The position numbers were made by a program, and so were the translations under genes. Below are positions 7,416 to 35,939 of a stretch of 37,354 bases of DNA, piece after piece (the first letter of the stretch is position 1; each line of letters starts with the position of its first letter). Origin of the DNA: Candidatus Saccharibacteria bacterium. GTDB lineage: Bacteria; Patescibacteriota; Saccharimonadia; JAGOAT01. The stretch spans positions 1 to 37,354 of the forward strand of contig JAGOAT010000004.1 of the NCBI GenBank assembly GCA_017983775.1, given 5' to 3'. Under the pieces are notes generated by a model. That model saw only the letters and a list, made by a program, of their open reading frames with translations. It was not told the DNA's origin and ran no database searches.

Positions 7416-7481
7416 AGCGAATCCATGTGCTTAGTCACCTGTTCATTATATTGGATCCAGGATAGTCATCTTTCGACATTT

Positions 7482-7541
7482 CGAGGCTAGACCTTGCATT
7501 TTCATATCTGTTAGCTCGGTCAATTTCGAGGTTAGACCTCG
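7482..7541 (-). repeat. Bipartite REP-like unit 1
   Basis: Two 15-bp palindromes at 7482-7496 (diverged) and 7527-7541 (CGAGGTTAGACCTCG), with starts 45 bp apart. The central AACAGAT reads on the minus strand. The unit lies between the ends of two convergent genes. A 70-codon minus-strand frame from 7647 (a hydrophobic stretch, then repeat-encoded residues) runs into it and may be a small membrane ORF cut by the repeat. The rest of 7416-7709 shows nothing else. Confidence 0.85.
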
Positions 7542-7709
7542 AAACATCAATTAGAACAAATAACCCTGATAATAGCCCTCCAGCCACCAACTCAAACGTC
7601 TTCACCCCCTCTGCGGTGCACTTACCACCGAATGCAAGGCCTGCCAATTATTAATGAATCTCAGTGAACTTATAATCCTCAATAAAAATCTACTCAGACT
7701 ATCAATCTG

Positions 7710-11992: not shown

Positions 11993-12026
11993 TACCAAGC
12001 TAATAATCCCTCCAAAATCCACGATT

Positions 12027-12086
12027 CGAGGTCAGACCTCGTCAATTTTGATCTGTTGCACTACCCAAATTCAAGGTTAGACCTCG
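12027..12086 (-). repeat. Bipartite REP-like unit 2
   Basis: Palindromes at 12027-12041 (CGAGGTCAGACCTCG) and 12072-12086, with starts 45 bp apart. AACAGAT lies between them on the minus strand. The unit sits between divergent gene starts, so it is not a terminator. Confidence 0.9.
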
Positions 12087-12163
12087 AAAATACTAGATGG
12101 CTATTTTGATAGTCTTCTTGATGATAAGATATTGATATAGACCAATTAATAATAAGGAGAAAA

Positions 12164-14514: not shown

Positions 14515-14567
14515 ATACCTAGCTTACTACAAAACATGACTAATTAAAATCATCCATAGTGGCATTA

Positions 14568-14627
14568 CGAGGTTAGACCTCGTCAATTTTAATCTGTTCG
14601 GATAGTGCAAATCGAGGTCAGACCTCG
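14568..14627 (-). repeat. Bipartite REP-like unit 3
   Basis: Palindromes at 14568-14582 (CGAGGTTAGACCTCG) and 14613-14627 (CGAGGTCAGACCTCG), with starts 45 bp apart. AACAGAT lies between them on the minus strand. The unit sits between divergent gene starts. Confidence 0.9.
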
Positions 14628-14676
14628 ATTTTTGACTAGTGAAGTTGGGGAGCAATCTAAAATGCTTGATTTGATA

Positions 14677-17495: not shown

Positions 17496-18525
17496 GTAAT
17501 CATCCAGCACCTTTGCAACATAAATGGTAGGCGTCCTAAAAGGAGCCTACCATGGCTTATTCTAACAACCCTAACCTACCTAAAGCTAGAGTAGTTGCTA
17601 TGCAATTACTCTTCAAAGAGCAACTACCCTTGTTGGTTGTTGCTAACAAGTGTGGTGTACACCGTAGTACTGTCTACCGTTGGTAGCGTAAATAGAGCGA
17701 GCTCAATAAGCACGTCCAACTCACCAACGACAATCGTCCAAACAGAATACAACCCTCACCAAGTAGTACCTTCCGATTAGCAGTGTGTATATGGCGTATT
17801 CCTACCCTAACCTCCAGACCTCCTACCAACCCAACTGCCGTCAGTGAAGAGCTGAGACAACTAGTGCTTACTGTAAGAGCACAACTGAAGCGCTGTGCCG
17901 AGGTAGTCTGGCATCACCTTGTAACGGTATTGTCTGTTTCAGTAGTGTCAGACGTATCCTATGGAGGTCTGGGGTTGCTCGAGGACGAACTAACTGTATC
18001 CGTAGAGATAATCCTAGAAGGCCACACCCCACCAGACCTGGAGAACTTGTACAAACAGACACTATTCACCATCTAGACCCAAGAACAGGTAGACGGCTGT
18101 ATTGCTACACTGTCATTGATCTATTCACTAGAATGACTCATGTTGCATTAGCACCCAAACTCAGACAAGGACTAGCTGTTCAGGCTATACTGCAAGCCCA
18201 AGCTGTCTGAGGCTTTCCCATTGTCATGGTTCAAGCCGACAACGGACCAGAGTACCAAAGATACTTCGAACAGCAAATGAAGCGAGTAAATATCACTACC
18301 AGACACCGTAGACTACACCGACCCAATGACAATGCACATATTGAGAGATTTAACCGAACAGTCCAGACAGAATGCATTGGTTACTATTGGAACAGGAGCG
18401 TTTCGCTCCCGTCCCAGCAAATCAAGTTAACTGCTTGGCTTGCATACTACAACACCAGGAGAGTACACTTAGGAATACAGTTACTGACACCTATACAGAT
18501 GTTGCAAAGGTCTTGAGTTGTTTAC
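17496..18525 (+). mobile_element. Degraded IS481-like insertion sequence with imperfect terminal inverted repeats
   Basis: The left end 17496-17521 and right end 18499-18525 are inverted repeats. They share a perfect inner 12-mer (CCTTTGCAACAT and its complement) and a partly matched outer GTAA. The length is about 1.03 kb, right for the family. The enclosed transposase is broken by stops and frameshifts, so the element cannot move by itself. No target duplication was recognised at the ends. Confidence 0.75.
17552..18516 (+). pseudogene. IS481-like transposase, multiply broken
   Basis: A ribosome binding site (AAAAGGAG) and ATG 17552 open a 44-codon helix-turn-helix segment ending GVHRSTVYRW, then TAG at 17684. 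The same frame resumes later with ISRPPTNP-type residues and RAQLKRCAEVVWHHL. It then shifts by two, giving the DDE core GELVQTDTIHHLDPRTGRRL, CYTVIDLFTRMTHVAL, VQADNGPEYQ and HIERFNRTVQTE, ending LTPIQMLQRS. A TGA at 18208-18210 breaks the core. All three catalytic acidic positions are still readable, so the decay is fairly recent. Confidence 0.85.
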
Positions 18526-20448: not shown

Positions 20449-20514
20449 ACATGCAAAGACCAAGATTTTGATGATTTTATTGCCATCGACGGAAACTCAC
20501 CGCCTCCAAGAATT

Positions 20515-20574
20515 CGAGGTCTAACCTCGAATTCACAGACCTCAACAGATCAAAACCATCGAGGTCTAACCTCG
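20515..20574 (+). repeat. Bipartite REP-like unit 4
   Basis: Two identical palindromes (CGAGGTCTAACCTCG) at 20515-20529 and 20560-20574, with starts 45 bp apart. AACAGAT lies between them on the plus strand. This is the first unit in this orientation. It lies upstream of aspS and downstream of DUF5996. Confidence 0.9.
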
Positions 20575-20594
20575 AAATGTTAGTTTTAATATTA

Positions 20595-21542
20595 CTAGAT
20601 ATGATACTTGGTAGATAGACGTTCTGGATCAATATCCAGCATAGACCTATCCCAGTTAGCCAAGTTGGCGACTATATTGTAGGTCTGACTAAAAAAATCT
20701 AGAATCATTGACTGAGGGTTATTGCTTGCTCGAACTAGTTCATAGGGGAGGATCCATTCACCTATAGATTTATCGAAATATCCAACATCTAATCTGTAAT
20801 CTGTAATTCCATCTGGTGCTGGAGAGCCGTAACTATAAAAGCTACCTTCAGTAGATCCGCCTGACCAAAAACCTACCGAAAAATTCTCTCTAAATTCTGC
20901 CTCTTGGAGTACCCAAACTGGCAGATTTGGTATAGTTGATTTACTGGAGACTAAAGCTGCTCTGCCAGAGTAACGGATCTGTGACAAATCCATAGAACCC
21001 CAAAACAACTGGACTGGACTAGATTTACCAGCAAACCCTGCTCGCCAATACTCAAGAACCTGACTAATGCCAAGACACTGATGCCAATACTTGCTAACTG
21101 AATCTTTATCATACTCTCTTACCTCTGTATCCTTAGAAAAATCTATAGCGGGATCTACTTCATTCGGCCTGGTACTAATATTTGGCTCGATGCCCAAATC
21201 CTTTAATGCTCTAAATACCTCAGTATAAAAATCAGCCACAGACATGCTCCTTAATTCAATAGTCTTGACATCTGACTGATGACTACGGATTACAAGTAGA
21301 TGATTGGAGAGATCAAATTCTATATCAAAATATATTGATCCTGAATACATGAGGCTTGTTCTGAGTCCTAGTGCGCTTACCCTGAATCCAATATTCCACC
21401 AATGATTGAGTAGGGAGCTTGAGGCCATCTGAATTTTGCCAACTACTTGCAACCATCGATGCAACCCTTCCCTAGTATCTTGCCAATCATCGCTAACCAA
21501 CTTTGGCCAATTCAGATCGTCCAAATCGGTACCTAGTATCAT
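20595..21542 (-). CDS. DUF5996 family protein
   Basis: A 315-aa protein with the family's order of segments: WPKLVSDDWQDTREGLHRWL, QVVGKIQMASSSLLNHWWNI, FDIEFDLSNHLLVI, SVADFYTEVFRALKDLGIEP, FAGKSSPVQLFWGSMDLSQI, then the GFWSGGSTEGSFYSYGSPAP region. The function of DUF5996 is not established. The ATG has a strong ACAGGAGG site, so this gene is translated from a leader, unlike several neighbours. A TATAGAAT-like box lies farther upstream. Confidence 0.88.
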   Translation of the reverse strand: MILGTDLDDLNWPKLVSDDWQDTREGLHRWLQVVGKIQMASSSLLNHWWNIGFRVSALGLRTSLMYSGSIYFDIEFDLSNHLLVIRSHQSDVKTIELRSMSVADFYTEVFRALKDLGIEPNISTRPNEVDPAIDFSKDTEVREYDKDSVSKYWHQCLGISQVLEYWRAGFAGKSSPVQLFWGSMDLSQIRYSGRAALVSSKSTIPNLPVWVLQEAEFRENFSVGFWSGGSTEGSFYSYGSPAPDGITDYRLDVGYFDKSIGEWILPYELVRASNNPQSMILDFFSQTYNIVANLANWDRSMLDIDPERLSTKYHI

Positions 21543-21617
21543 AATATTTCCTCCTGTAATTATTTTGGTTACCTTAATTCTATACGATATGCCCTATTTT
21601 TCCAATCAGCACAACTT

Positions 21618-21677
21618 CAAGGTCTAACCTCGAAATAGACTACTGCAACAGATCAAAATTGACGAGGTCTGACCTTG
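21618..21677 (+). repeat. Bipartite REP-like unit 5 (left flank of the RAYT gene)
   Basis: Palindromes at 21618-21632 and 21663-21677, with starts 45 bp apart and AACAGAT on the plus strand. It is almost identical to unit 6 (two differences over about 66 bases), which lies just past the RAYT gene, in the same orientation. Confidence 0.92.
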
Positions 21678-21797
21678 AAATAAGGTTTTTAAAGCTCTTA
21701 AGCTTGCTAAATTCTGATTTATTGACGACAATATTGTTTATACACAATATATCGCTCAATATTTTGAGCTAATAAATCTAACTAACCTATACATAGT

Positions 21798-22451
21798 ATG
21801 CCTAGTCGCAATGTAGTAAGAGAACACTTACCCAATACCTTTTACCATGTCTATAATCGTGGTAATCGTAAATCACAAATTTTCTTCAATGATAGGGACT
21901 ATTCGAAGTTCATGTCAATTATCCTATTCCTATTAACCCCCAGACAAAATCTTGCAAACGGTCTAAAAATATTTTCAAAACCAAGAACAAAGAACCAGAA
22001 TTTCAGCCAAACAATCTACTTGATCAATATCGTCTTGATGCCAAATCATTTTCACCTACTCTTATACGTTAAGGATCCTAAGGCTCTGGAAAAATTAATG
22101 CATAGATTGAGTCAAAAATTTACCAAACTAATCAATGACAACTACCTACTGACCGGTAGACTATTCCAGGGAGTCTATAGAGCTAGACCAATAATGTCAG
22201 AAGGTGATCTAATAAATACGGCTGCGTATATCCACCTAAATCCAAATGAATTAAGCCCAGATAATTCTGATTATTACCTAGAATATCCATACTCTGATCT
22301 CACAACTAGTCATCCGATATTAGAAGTTGGTAATTTTGACCTGCTCCTAAATAAAGCCCGTATCAATATAGATGAGTATAATGAGTATCTGTCCAGCAAG
22401 TCAAAAGACTTTGTCGAGAAACAATTGATCAAAAAGATCGAGCATCAATAA
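21798..22451 (+). CDS. REP-associated tyrosine transposase (RAYT, Y1/HUH family)
   Basis: A 217-aa single-strand-cutting transposase of the IS200/IS605-related RAYT group, known to act on palindromic REP hairpins. It begins with the family's YHVYNRGNRKSQIFF segment. The HUH metal-binding pair is in MPNHFHLLLY (H84, H86). The catalytic Tyr candidate is Y144 in INTAAYIHLNPNEL. All three look intact. It is bracketed by near-identical repeat units 5 and 6, and seven more units lie elsewhere in the window, so it is the likely source of their spread. No Shine-Dalgarno sequence is seen; TATACA lies 4 nt before the ATG. Confidence 0.9.
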   Translation: MPSRNVVREHLPNTFYHVYNRGNRKSQIFFNDRDYSKFMSIILFLLTPRQNLANGLKIFSKPRTKNQNFSQTIYLINIVLMPNHFHLLLYVKDPKALEKLMHRLSQKFTKLINDNYLLTGRLFQGVYRARPIMSEGDLINTAAYIHLNPNELSPDNSDYYLEYPYSDLTTSHPILEVGNFDLLLNKARINIDEYNEYLSSKSKDFVEKQLIKKIEHQ

Positions 22452-22501
22452 GCCAGTCTCCATAAGGTCAAGTCTGTCTATTATTTTTTGATGCCTGGCT
22501 T

Positions 22502-22561
22502 CAAGGTCTAACCTCGAAATAGACTGCTACAACAGATCAAAATTGACGAGGTCTGACCTTG
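22502..22561 (+). repeat. Bipartite REP-like unit 6 (right flank of the RAYT gene)
   Basis: Palindromes at 22502-22516 and 22547-22561, with starts 45 bp apart and AACAGAT on the plus strand. It lies 50 bases past the RAYT stop and is followed by the promoter of the DUF1801 gene. Confidence 0.92.
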
Positions 22562-22615
22562 AAATGTGGTATTTGATGATGTGTTATGGGGTTTGAATAA
22601 AACTAGAGAGATCGG

Positions 22616-27839: not shown

Positions 27840-27855
27840 AGCAGGTAAGATTATA

Positions 27856-27889
27856 CCACATTATTCCCCCAAAAAATCCCCCACTTGAT
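27856..27889 (+). repeat. Left 34-bp direct repeat of the kinase/ART cassette
   Basis: It is identical over 34 bases to 30666-30699. The right copy encodes the last nine codons of the ABC transporter gene plus its stop and 5 bases after. This left copy is cut off from the gene, just downstream of tRNA-Ser. Confidence 0.95.
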
Positions 27890-30297: not shown

Positions 30298-30663
30298 ATG
30301 CAACCAAAAGAATTCTTTTCAGATCGAGAAATACTACTACCCTTATCCGTTTATTTTATACAATCATATACGGATACCACTGTATTGGTGGGAATTGATG
30401 TCAAATATACATGTACTCGTATATCGTGGTTTGATACCGTAAAAGAACGTAGCATGACTATTAAACGAGTAATTAGTAATCGCCCTGAAGATTTTAAATT
30501 CCAAAGATCCGAAAAAGAAGGGGGTGGTATTTATCACCTTACTCCGATGACTCTAGAGACTTATTATGAATCAGTGAAGCCTCACCTGGCTGGAGGTGCG
30601 GATTTTACCGATCAAACGTCGATGATATCTGCTTTCTTGACAACAAAAGATAACTTCTGGTAA
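30298..30663 (+). CDS. 121-aa partner of the kinase/ART protein
   Basis: A 121-aa protein with a strong ribosome binding site (GTAGGAG) and 35 bases between it and the stop of the kinase/ART gene. It is compact and beta-rich (EILLPLSVYFIQSYTDTTVL, then VLVGIDVKYTCTRISWFD), with a helical end (MTLETYYESVKPHLAGG). No family is recognised. Its stop lies 2 bases before the right direct repeat. By position it could be an immunity or accessory protein; the sequence does not show this directly. Confidence 0.6.
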   Translation: MQPKEFFSDREILLPLSVYFIQSYTDTTVLVGIDVKYTCTRISWFDTVKERSMTIKRVISNRPEDFKFQRSEKEGGGIYHLTPMTLETYYESVKPHLAGGADFTDQTSMISAFLTTKDNFW

Positions 30664-30665
30664 TG

Positions 30666-30699
30666 CCACATTATTCCCCCAAAAAATCCCCCACTTGAT
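30666..30699 (+). repeat. Right 34-bp direct repeat of the kinase/ART cassette (3' end of ABC transporter gene)
   Basis: Identical to 27856-27889. It carries the TAA and the last nine codons of the exporter gene, so the gene remains whole on this side. Confidence 0.95.
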
Positions 30700-33252: not shown

Positions 33253-33344
33253 AAGTCTAGGAAAAATTAATTTCCACCTGACAATCTTATCAAATCCACC
33301 AGAAAATAACAAGCGAAATCCATCCGTTCCCCCAACCCCCTCTA

Positions 33345-33404
33345 CGAGGTCTGACCTCGTTTTTGACCACTCTAACAGATATAAAATTTCGAGGTCTAAC
33401 CTTG
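33345..33404 (+). repeat. Bipartite REP-like unit 7
   Basis: Palindromes at 33345-33359 (CGAGGTCTGACCTCG) and 33390-33404, with starts 45 bp apart and AACAGAT on the plus strand. It lies between tRNA-Glu and the end of the membrane-anchored gene. Confidence 0.9.
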
Positions 33405-33449
33405 AAATGGCAGAAGTAACTCAATTAAAGACTTACTACATCAACCAGC

Positions 33450-34055
33450 TTAACGTATTATTGGTGTGTATTCGATAATCTTATTGCTACTTGTTCGATA
33501 GAGGATTGCTCGATTATCAAAGACTAAATAGTAGTCCCCGATCTCTGCCCGGCTAAGCAATCCCGACTGTCCAGCACTGAGAGTATCAAGCGCCTCCTGG
33601 CTATTGATGTAAGCAATGTTGACCAATGCCTCCTCTTCTGGAATCTCGATCAAGTCTCTGACCTTTTTCTCGATATCACTCCCATCAGATTGATTAGATA
33701 CTTCCTGTTCTCTACCTTCTTCCCTATCCAATCTATTATTTAAATCTTGCTTGAGATTTAATGCTCCATAGCCAATCAAGCCAAGAATAACCAGCCCTAG
33801 GCAAATCACCAGTCCGATCAATAACTTAATCTTCCAGCTATATTTAGCTCTTGTCTGACCTAATTCATCAGAAAAAGATAATTTTACATCAGAATCACTA
33901 TTGGCCTTACGACTACTTTTTCTCGCCCGTGACATTGGTCTATCTTTAGCCGATGACTGGGACTTGGTTGCGGTCTTATTAATCTTGCTAGTCTTGCTTG
34001 CCACCAAAGTAGGCTTCTTGGGCTGAGGTTTTTTGGGTGATTTTGCTACTACCAT
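33450..34055 (-). CDS. Single-span membrane-anchored protein
   Basis: A 201-aa protein with a lysine-rich, low-complexity cytoplasmic N-terminus of about 75 residues and one hydrophobic helix (IKLLIGLVICLGLVILGLIG, near 76-98). An extracytoplasmic domain follows (NIAYINSQEALDTLSAGQSG, then GDYYLVFDNRAILYRTSSNK). No catalytic motif is seen, and the topology suggests a surface-anchored protein. TATAAT lies 7 nt before its ATG. It is between repeat units 7 and 8. Confidence 0.65.
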   Translation of the reverse strand: MVVAKSPKKPQPKKPTLVASKTSKINKTATKSQSSAKDRPMSRARKSSRKANSDSDVKLSFSDELGQTRAKYSWKIKLLIGLVICLGLVILGLIGYGALNLKQDLNNRLDREEGREQEVSNQSDGSDIEKKVRDLIEIPEEEALVNIAYINSQEALDTLSAGQSGLLSRAEIGDYYLVFDNRAILYRTSSNKIIEYTPIIR

Positions 34056-34062
34056 TTAAATC

Positions 34063-34068
34063 ATTATA
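34063..34068 (-). promoter_or_regulatory. -10 element (TATAAT) for leaderless membrane-protein mRNA
   Basis: TATAAT on the minus strand ends 7 nt before ATG 34055. Repeat unit 8 begins 15 bases upstream of it. Confidence 0.6.
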
Positions 34069-34082
34069 ACATAAGCATTGAT

Positions 34083-34142
34083 CGAGGTCTGACCTCGAAA
34101 TTGCTGATTGTAACAGATCAAAATTGATGAGGTCTGACCTCG
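34083..34142 (+). repeat. Bipartite REP-like unit 8
   Basis: Palindromes at 34083-34097 (CGAGGTCTGACCTCG) and 34128-34142, with starts 45 bp apart and AACAGAT on the plus strand. It lies directly upstream of the promoter of the 201-aa protein gene. Confidence 0.92.
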
Positions 34143-34187
34143 AAATAGAGGTTTGGGTGATGATAATAAATCTATTTTAGACAGAGG

Positions 34188-35825
34188 TTATTTGGGTACC
34201 AGTCGATAAGCTCGGGCCGCGTCATAGTCAGTCAGAAGTCTAGCATCTGGCTGGCAAACCTGTTCTACTCGATAATCGCGATAGAGTGAATCCTTGGCTC
34301 CTGGATCCTCAAACCTAGGCCAATTCCAGCTAACATACCATATATTGTTATTGTAAAAATCTATGGATCTAACAATCTCTCCTTTGCTCAGATAATTAAA
34401 GGCTCCCCTCTCATTAATAACCCTTTTCCAGGCACTACCATTAATATCTGGTTTTTCCTTGTCTCCTATCAAATAGAACTGGGAATCTTGATCTAGAATA
34501 TCTCTCAGATAATAGTCATATATCAAATAATTACTATCATCATCTATCAGATAGATATTATCTTTACCATTCTTATTATCGATACTACATTCGATAGCGC
34601 TTTTGTCCTGGTATACCGTAACCTGCTGCTCTTTCAGGAGTCTTGTGTTTCCATAAACAAAACTATAAACGACCCCGATTAATAACAAGATACCCGTAGC
34701 CAAAACAGCTAACCTCCTAGATCTATCTAATAACAAGGCACCAATTAATCCAGCAATCGTAAATACAAAAGTAAAAAAGACCGATATGCTTAAGTATCGA
34801 CCATAAAAAACCGATGTCTTAAACACCAAAGAAATCCCCAGCATCACTACTGTCACCACAAGCCCAATCCTCGTTAGTAGCAACCAATTATAATTAATAT
34901 TGTCGCTATTGGATTTCTTCTGAGTAGACACAAAAAATTTCCATATTTTCCTGTAATTAAAACCAATAAGGCAAAAAATTACAAAACCAATAGCCAATGC
35001 TGGCCATCCAAACATCAAATACTCTTCAATATTTGTCAAGAATAGCACTGGAAGATAGAAAATTGAGAATAAACTAGGCTTTGGTACCCAAAATCCACCG
35101 TTAAAACCAATTAGTCGTCCAATAAAGACGTTAATCCATGGTAGGTAGAAGATAATAGTCAGGATACCAACTCTAAAAAACCAAGAGTTCCGTACAAACC
35201 CCCAGAACTTTCTAAGATTAAATCCCCTAGCATAATCCCAATATTCAACTATTGCCAATCCGATCAATAGGAAGATTGCATAATAATGAGTATAGATTGA
35301 CAAAGCTGCCAAGATGGCAACAGCAAGAAGATTAATCCTGGTCTGGTTGCCAGACCTGTAATCCAAATAGAACCAAAATAGCAAACTGGTAATCAAAAAT
35401 GCCAAACAATACATCCTGATCTCCAAGCCTAAACGCATAGCAAATGGACTGGTAATCATAATGATACTAGTAATCCATGCAACCTTTGCAGAAAAATACC
35501 TGTAAGCTATCAGAACCATCACACTAACGGAAATCGCCACCAAGATCAATCCAAATAATCTAAGAATAAGCTCACCATTACCAAAGATATCTGCCCAGAT
35601 TTTTAATAGATAGTAATATAAAGGAGGATGAACATCTGCAGCAGTTACTTGATTTATTTTAGCAAAATCTAACTGAATTATCTGGATGCTAAATGCTTCA
35701 TCTCCCCAAACCTGAAGTCTGGTTGCCCACAAAAAACCAACTACCAAATAGCTCAAGCCTGCGATCAACGCCCCAGATATTACCTTTCGATTGATCCTAT
35801 ATCTACCCTTATCTTTTGTTTTCAT
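34188..35825 (-). CDS. GT39/ArnT-like membrane glycosyltransferase
   Basis: A 545-aa polytopic membrane protein with about 11-12 helices. Near the start are WGDEAFSIQIIQ (acidic pair in the first outer loop) and DVHPPLYYYLLKIWADIFG, the signatures of the PMT_2/ArnT group, which transfers sugars from lipid-linked donors onto proteins or lipids outside the cell. The large C-terminal outer domain (about 400-545) fits the group. Donor and acceptor are unknown. It starts at ATG 35825, with TATAAT 8 nt before. Confidence 0.8.
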   Translation of the reverse strand: MKTKDKGRYRINRKVISGALIAGLSYLVVGFLWATRLQVWGDEAFSIQIIQLDFAKINQVTAADVHPPLYYYLLKIWADIFGNGELILRLFGLILVAISVSVMVLIAYRYFSAKVAWITSIIMITSPFAMRLGLEIRMYCLAFLITSLLFWFYLDYRSGNQTRINLLAVAILAALSIYTHYYAIFLLIGLAIVEYWDYARGFNLRKFWGFVRNSWFFRVGILTIIFYLPWINVFIGRLIGFNGGFWVPKPSLFSIFYLPVLFLTNIEEYLMFGWPALAIGFVIFCLIGFNYRKIWKFFVSTQKKSNSDNINYNWLLLTRIGLVVTVVMLGISLVFKTSVFYGRYLSISVFFTFVFTIAGLIGALLLDRSRRLAVLATGILLLIGVVYSFVYGNTRLLKEQQVTVYQDKSAIECSIDNKNGKDNIYLIDDDSNYLIYDYYLRDILDQDSQFYLIGDKEKPDINGSAWKRVINERGAFNYLSKGEIVRSIDFYNNNIWYVSWNWPRFEDPGAKDSLYRDYRVEQVCQPDARLLTDYDAARAYRLVPK

Positions 35826-35833
35826 TAATGATT

Positions 35834-35839
35834 ATTATA
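35834..35839 (-). promoter_or_regulatory. -10 element (TATAAT) for leaderless glycosyltransferase mRNA
   Basis: TATAAT on the minus strand ends 8 nt before ATG 35825. Confidence 0.55.
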
Positions 35840-35865
35840 TAGCAAAATTGGCTCAAGAACTATTG

Positions 35866-35925
35866 CAAGGTCTGACCTCGATATTAAACCTCCCAACAGA
35901 TCAAAATTGATGAGGTCTGACCTCG
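35866..35925 (+). repeat. Bipartite REP-like unit 9
   Basis: Palindromes at 35866-35880 and 35911-35925, with starts 45 bp apart and AACAGAT on the plus strand. It lies between the surface protein's 3' end and the glycosyltransferase promoter. Confidence 0.9.
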
Positions 35926-35939
35926 AATAGTGATTTTTG

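Follow-up and report, generated by a model that had tools for sequence, protein, structure and literature searches.

A RAYT-like gene bracketed by palindrome doublets in a Saccharibacteria genome, and its probable pairing with a dispersed hairpin repeat family

The stretch of DNA analysed here (the window, 37,354 nucleotides of contig JAGOAT010000004.1) comes from a Candidatus Saccharibacteria assembly (G000) of 786,922 bases in 43 contigs, which is 97.4% complete. It contains RAYT1, a gene for a RAYT-like Y1/HUH nuclease, and nine copies of a short palindromic element, the type-I unit, two of which bracket the gene:

7480..7543, minus strand: type-I unit 1, dispersed copy
12025..12088, minus strand: type-I unit 2, dispersed copy
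14566..14629, minus strand: type-I unit 3, dispersed copy
20512..20587, plus strand: type-I unit 4, in the 108-bp gap from aspS to a DUF5996 gene
21615..21690, plus strand: type-I unit 5 (palindrome P1, linker with AACAGATCAAAA, palindrome P2), upstream bracket of RAYT1
21798..22451, plus strand: RAYT1, RAYT-like Y1/HUH nuclease gene, 217 aa, H84, H86 and Y144 intact
22499..22574, plus strand: type-I unit 6, downstream bracket of RAYT1, oriented as unit 5
33342..33417, plus strand: type-I unit 7, dispersed copy
34080..34155, plus strand: type-I unit 8, dispersed copy
35863..35938, plus strand: type-I unit 9, dispersed copy

The window also holds a DDE transposase remnant (17783-18516, with an rve_3 integrase core at 18226-18516) and a 37-nt direct repeat (27853-27889 and 30663-30699, 97% identical, ATACCACATTATTCCCCCAAAAAATCCCCCACTTGAT), which is unrelated to the doublets.

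A sequence-only reading of this DNA had proposed that the gene encodes a Y1/HUH enzyme with its catalytic residues intact, and the open reading frame agrees with this: the product matches PF01797 with 29.7 bits (Pfam cut-off 23), Y1_Tnp being its sole Pfam domain. With the NCBIfam model REP_Tyr_transpos it scores 42.2 bits, under the cut-off of 80, thus by this model RAYT1 is best regarded as a divergent relative and not as an equivalog. The top PDB fold match of the AlphaFold model (pLDDT 91, pTM 0.87) was 4er8 (E 9.9e-6, probability 1.00), the structure of TnpAREP in complex with a REP hairpin, followed by IS200/IS605 transposases. The C-terminus of the model is a long helix (residues 191-216), and Pfam detected no C-terminal helix-turn-helix domain. 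The protein has the motifs NHFH, LFQ (FQ) and YIHLNP, i.e. the HUH motif and the catalytic tyrosine in Y-x-x-x-NP on a Y1 fold, which characterize the class 2 TnpAY1 enzymes (RAYT / TnpAREP). These motifs are those of the second subclass 2.1 variant (NH[YF]H, FQ, Y[IV]HLNP; Table 1, PMC6006769), to which we provisionally assign RAYT1, by motif alone and with no tree including reference members.

Each type-I unit is built from P1 (core AGGTCTRACCT), a 34-nt linker with an invariant AACAGAT and P2, which has the same core and direction as P1 and always follows it at a phase of 45 bp. All nine units noticed in the sequence-only reading were found with this fixed phase, and shuffled sequence gave no matches. 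The hairpins are strong (z about -4 to -7.6); depending on the unit, the sequence folds into two separate hairpins or a single long one, and in terms of covariation the two models pair about equally well. It had also been noted that RAYT1 is flanked by same-orientation units with two differences, the remaining units being more diverged. Both observations hold: units 5 and 6 are direct repeats, 93% identical across 76 nt, with two differing core positions, and no other two of the genome's 15 type-I units are as similar (65 identical positions of 68 in the alignment, 50/68 for the median pair). It must be noted that near-identity by itself is not RAYT-specific, because another pair, at C1:35339 and 37657, is identical at 63 of 68 positions and brackets ordinary genes. 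Since this pair is nearly as similar as the one at RAYT1, the decisive tests of bracketing are independent replicates.

All nine units of the window are fully non-coding (p about 3e-9). Their intergenic position and strong hairpins could mean that they are regulatory or structural elements of the host, such as terminators, operator pairs or nucleoid sites, and that it is coincidence that two of them flank RAYT1. We consider this very improbable, as the units adjoin genes in any orientation and are missed by a terminator scan, and as the second enzyme of this genome is bracketed by a different family and 82 of 107 homologues by a repeat of their own (see below). Terminators were rejected as a separate candidate: the units are without T runs and the matches of the terminator scan fall elsewhere. 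Single genes between successive same-orientation units (20512-22574 and 33342-35938) are reminiscent of an integron, in which a tyrosine recombinase would move these genes as mobile cassettes and the units would serve as attC-like recombination sites. No integron integrase exceeded its family cut-off, the only related gene being one Xer-like gene (85.8 bits, cut-off 265), and the units on contig C1 separate housekeeping genes, e.g. tgt and the gene for fructose-bisphosphate aldolase. An integron/attC array was rejected on these two grounds, and we regard this explanation as extremely improbable.

Genome-wide repeat counts were obtained from pattern searches together with the examined stretches. 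The genome has 15 type-I units, all with the exact 45-bp phase. Besides the nine of the window, C1 carries four and C18 and C22 a single unit each; the reversed control pattern gave none. The repeat that flanks RAYT1 is thus scattered through intergenic DNA, the arrangement that defines a REPtron. The units are not evenly distributed: nine of the 15 are on the RAYT1 contig, which makes up 5.5% of the genome (p about 2e-8), and the concentration persists when the flanking pair is left out (7/13, p about 2e-6). Contigs C1 and C4 together carry 13 of the 15. Clustering on the RAYT1 contig would fit short-range spread of the units, or it could reflect a tolerant region.

The same genome contains a second bracketed enzyme. 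RAYT2, on contig C13, is 54% identical to RAYT1 and is bracketed in the same manner by a different unit, type II, which has CAAGGAGTCCCCTTG palindromes and whose two copies are 97% identical. The type-II family is likewise dispersed (10 intact doublets and decayed ones), and its doublets match type I in their 45-bp phase and AACAGATCAAAA (AACAGAT) linker. The palindrome centre is TCTRA in type I vs. AGTCC in type II. At both genes the flanking copies are among the closest pairs of the respective families, and each enzyme has a repeat family of its own (RAYT1/type I and RAYT2/type II), as REPtron enzymes do. When the linker + P2 pattern of types I and II was searched in 393 genomes of the class, the only match outside this genome was a chance-like one (G003), and viral contigs had none. 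Two type-II doublets of opposite orientation (C1:49829-49891 and 53348-53410, L242) enclose about 3.5 kb with proS and are identical well past the unit borders, over at least 40 bp on the upstream and about 28 bp on the downstream side. A third RAYT homologue of the genome (C10:4511-5209; L049, L244), 232 aa long, has neither HUH motif nor flanking repeat; it looks catalytically inactive and is possibly domesticated.

These results bear on the possibility that RAYT1 and its two flanking units form an IS200-like insertion sequence, the dispersed units having arisen from it by deletion, as MITE-like derivatives. The full P1-linker-P2 anatomy common to all type-I units would be in line with this, and so would a case in another genome (G057), where the palindrome of one RAYT is present solely as its two flanking copies. 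However, no tnpB-like ORF adjoins RAYT1, the motif is Y-x-x-x-NP and not the Y-x-x-x-Q of the IS200/IS605 family, and the repeats are far more numerous than the genes. The near-identical multicopy genes expected of such an element were not found here: the genes are single-copy, and the two enzymes are much less similar to each other than IS copies are. In our judgement an insertion sequence of this type is improbable. The G057 case does show that pairing need not mean amplification, because there the repeat has just two, flanking, copies.

Bracketing was tested in 107 distinct RAYT homologues taken from class relatives and named records, mostly of Patescibacteria; the nearest relatives compared are related to our genome at class level. 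A gene was counted as bracketed when the repeat shared by its upstream and downstream flanks scored above the 99th percentile of swapped flanks. This threshold was exceeded by 68 of the 107 homologues and by 5 of 428 shifted windows of the same loci, and the number rose to 82 once overlap with the gene ends was permitted, which leaves about a quarter without detectable bracket. Among HUH-bearing homologues 81 of 101 were bracketed; among the full-length HUH-less ones (L037, L038, L040, L049) none of four, which probably represent only two independent lineages. Most of the shared flanking repeats form hairpins whose loop measures about 3 nt. AGG-N5-CCT occurs in 30 of 55 extractable palindromes, the arms varying from gene to gene, and GT[AG]G was found at the hairpin foot in 1 of 55 hairpins (control 4.9%). 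The higher the identity of two proteins, the more similar their palindromes tend to be (Mantel rho 0.15, permutation p 0.014), a weak signal that has the sign expected of enzyme-palindrome co-evolution. One member of the set, the RAYT of G036 (L127), is identical to L051, which comes from a Candidatus Saccharibacteria record; G036 and our genome being of one class, this class is taken to be that of the Saccharibacteria (Saccharimonadia). Three genomes of one genus (G003, G058 and G094; L037, L038, L040) share a conserved 201-aa HUH-less RAYT-like protein without flanking repeats, a candidate for domestication.

Enzyme and repeat also tend to occur together. In a sample of 99 genomes, 18 of them RAYT-bearing, the excess of CRAGG-N5-CCTYG over the reversed pattern was higher in the RAYT-bearing genomes (Mann-Whitney p 1.2e-5; p 3e-5 with the window's own genome removed). 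The RAYT-side palindrome recurs elsewhere in the genomes G034, G042, G001 and G393, often as doublets, one of which has 45-bp spacing in G042; inverted doublets occur in G001. G393 has three RAYT homologues (L116, L119, L139), of which two have inverted palindrome doublets that differ from each other (AGGTTCGACCT in one case, AGGTGCGACCT in the other); each of these doublets is dispersed. The co-occurrence of gene and repeats, which the sequence-only reading had named as a check, is therefore seen as an excess in RAYT-bearing genomes, but the rule is not strict, and the refutation test of that reading, repeats in a genome that lacks the RAYT, has a mixed outcome. G006, a class relative, has 67 palindromes of TTGCAAGGACGTTCCTTGCAA type (L229-L232), largely as doublets about 48-60 bp apart, and two profiles detected no Y1 gene in its assembly. 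As this assembly is 90% complete, the repeats are possibly orphans after loss of the enzyme, or the enzyme is possibly absent from the assembly only, on a missing contig.

Repeats without an enzyme raise the question whether the pairing, though real, is a relic: the enzyme may have spread the units in the past and now serve another task on single-stranded DNA, the repeats persisting passively. The roughly 60 palindromes retained in G006 and the divergence of most type-I copies (median 50/68) would agree with such a history. It is at odds with the intact catalytic residues of RAYT1 and with the copies beside the two RAYTs, which rank with the most similar pairs within either family, and we think it rather unlikely.

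The reading we favour, and hold to be very likely correct, is that the locus is a REPtron-like element of Saccharibacteria, in which a class-2 Y1/HUH enzyme has its own partner family of short hairpin repeats. The presence of a second bracketed enzyme in the genome and of individual pairs in many relatives makes it look like the known enzyme-repeat partnerships. The pairing of gene and repeat, suggested from the window sequence alone, recurs with RAYT2 and type II and in the 82 homologues, and it is accompanied by the co-occurrence and the weak co-divergence described above. It is strongly supported by these comparisons, which also argue strongly that the enzyme recognizes its cognate repeat. 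Binding, cleavage and mobilization of the units by RAYT1, and the use of AACAGAT by both enzymes, are what we infer beyond this. RAYT1 may also be the parent of the scattered copies, as suggested in the sequence-only reading. In the mechanism we propose, RAYT1 would bind the hairpin of its cognate palindrome when the DNA is single-stranded, e.g. in the lagging-strand template. The recognized core would be AGG-N5-CCT, with specificity set by the central bases, which fits the observation that the main difference between types I and II is in the palindrome centre. As in TnpAREP (PMC8266576), recognition of the hairpin may depend on its loop and stem irregularities. Y144 would cut near the hairpin, and the 76-nt doublet would be copied or moved into further intergenic positions. 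Both enzymes may use the AACAGAT linker as a common cleavage or guide site. The doublets would be non-autonomous, and the gene-side copies may be kept or renewed by the activity of RAYT1 itself.

A more general proposition, to which we give about an even chance, is that a large, Patescibacteria-centred clade of Y1/HUH enzymes, belonging to a subclass described as lacking REPs, reads the central bases of hairpins that lack GTAG, with gene-by-gene co-evolution of enzyme and hairpin. The two pairs of this genome, which keep the 45-bp doublet scaffold and the AACAGAT linker and swap only the palindrome core, would then represent a naturally modular system of single-strand DNA recognition. These paralogous pairs are a ready-made specificity experiment. 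As the family contains dozens of natural pairs in which the hairpin core varies, the rule of hairpin choice can be tested by comparison and by in vitro swaps. With these results, the pairing of RAYTs and repeats reaches the Patescibacteria, whose ultra-small genomes should make any extra DNA costly, and also an enzyme subclass described as REP-free.

It is instructive to compare the system with those described previously. With the REPtron of E. coli, whose TnpAREP belongs to subclass 2.2 (Bertels group 2; the Bertels groups are cited as given in Quentin 2018), it shares a class-2 enzyme with HUH and Y in Y-x-x-x-NP and the fold of 4er8, a single-copy gene bracketed by a dispersed extragenic palindromic repeat, and the occurrence of several enzyme-repeat pairs in one genome. 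It differs in the hairpins, which lack GT[AG]G at the foot and are near-perfect palindromes with a loop of about 3 nt and an AGG-N5-CCT core, in the direct doublets of 45-bp phase, and in the motifs (NHFH / FQ / YIHLNP vs. DHLH / WE / YIHYNP in TnpAREP). Compared with IS200/IS605 elements, the Y1 HUH nuclease fold and the subterminal hairpins are alike; the absence of tnpB, Y-x-x-x-NP and dispersed repeats that outnumber the gene are not. Like REPINs and BIMEs, the units consist of two palindromes and a spacer and can also fold as one long hairpin, but both palindromes read AGGTCTRACCT on one strand, i.e. they are direct and not inverted, and the type-I spacer carries the invariant AACAGAT. 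In subclass 2.1, automatic and manual searches had found no REP-like sequences near the genes (Quentin 2018, PMC6006769), in contrast to the hairpin repeats that bracket most homologues here. The same authors suggested that subclass 2.1 corresponds to the TIRYTs of Di Nocera 2013 (PMC3733652), whose terminal repeats include self-complementary families that are dispersed and form dimers (S. maltophilia). The subclass 2.1 motifs (second variant), the non-GTAG flanking repeats and these self-complementary, dispersed, dimeric TIR families connect our system with TIRtrons; the differences are that the repeats are individual hairpins and not long TIRs, that they do not show GGGGWSAS, and that Pfam finds no HTH C-terminal domain.

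In the light of this literature two remarks of the sequence-only reading need correction: RAYT-REP pairing is known from Proteobacteria but is not restricted to them (PMC3733652, PMC6006769), and two-palindrome elements have precedents in BIMEs, REPINs and self-complementary TIR dimers. Our literature search found no earlier report of a RAYT/REP pairing for Patescibacteria or for this enzyme subclass. The TnpAREP-like fold, the hairpins without GTAG foot and the subclass 2.1 motifs taken together therefore define a system that is REPtron/TIRtron-like, and it is the enzyme subclass, the GTAG-less foot and the host group that are the more surprising points of the comparison.
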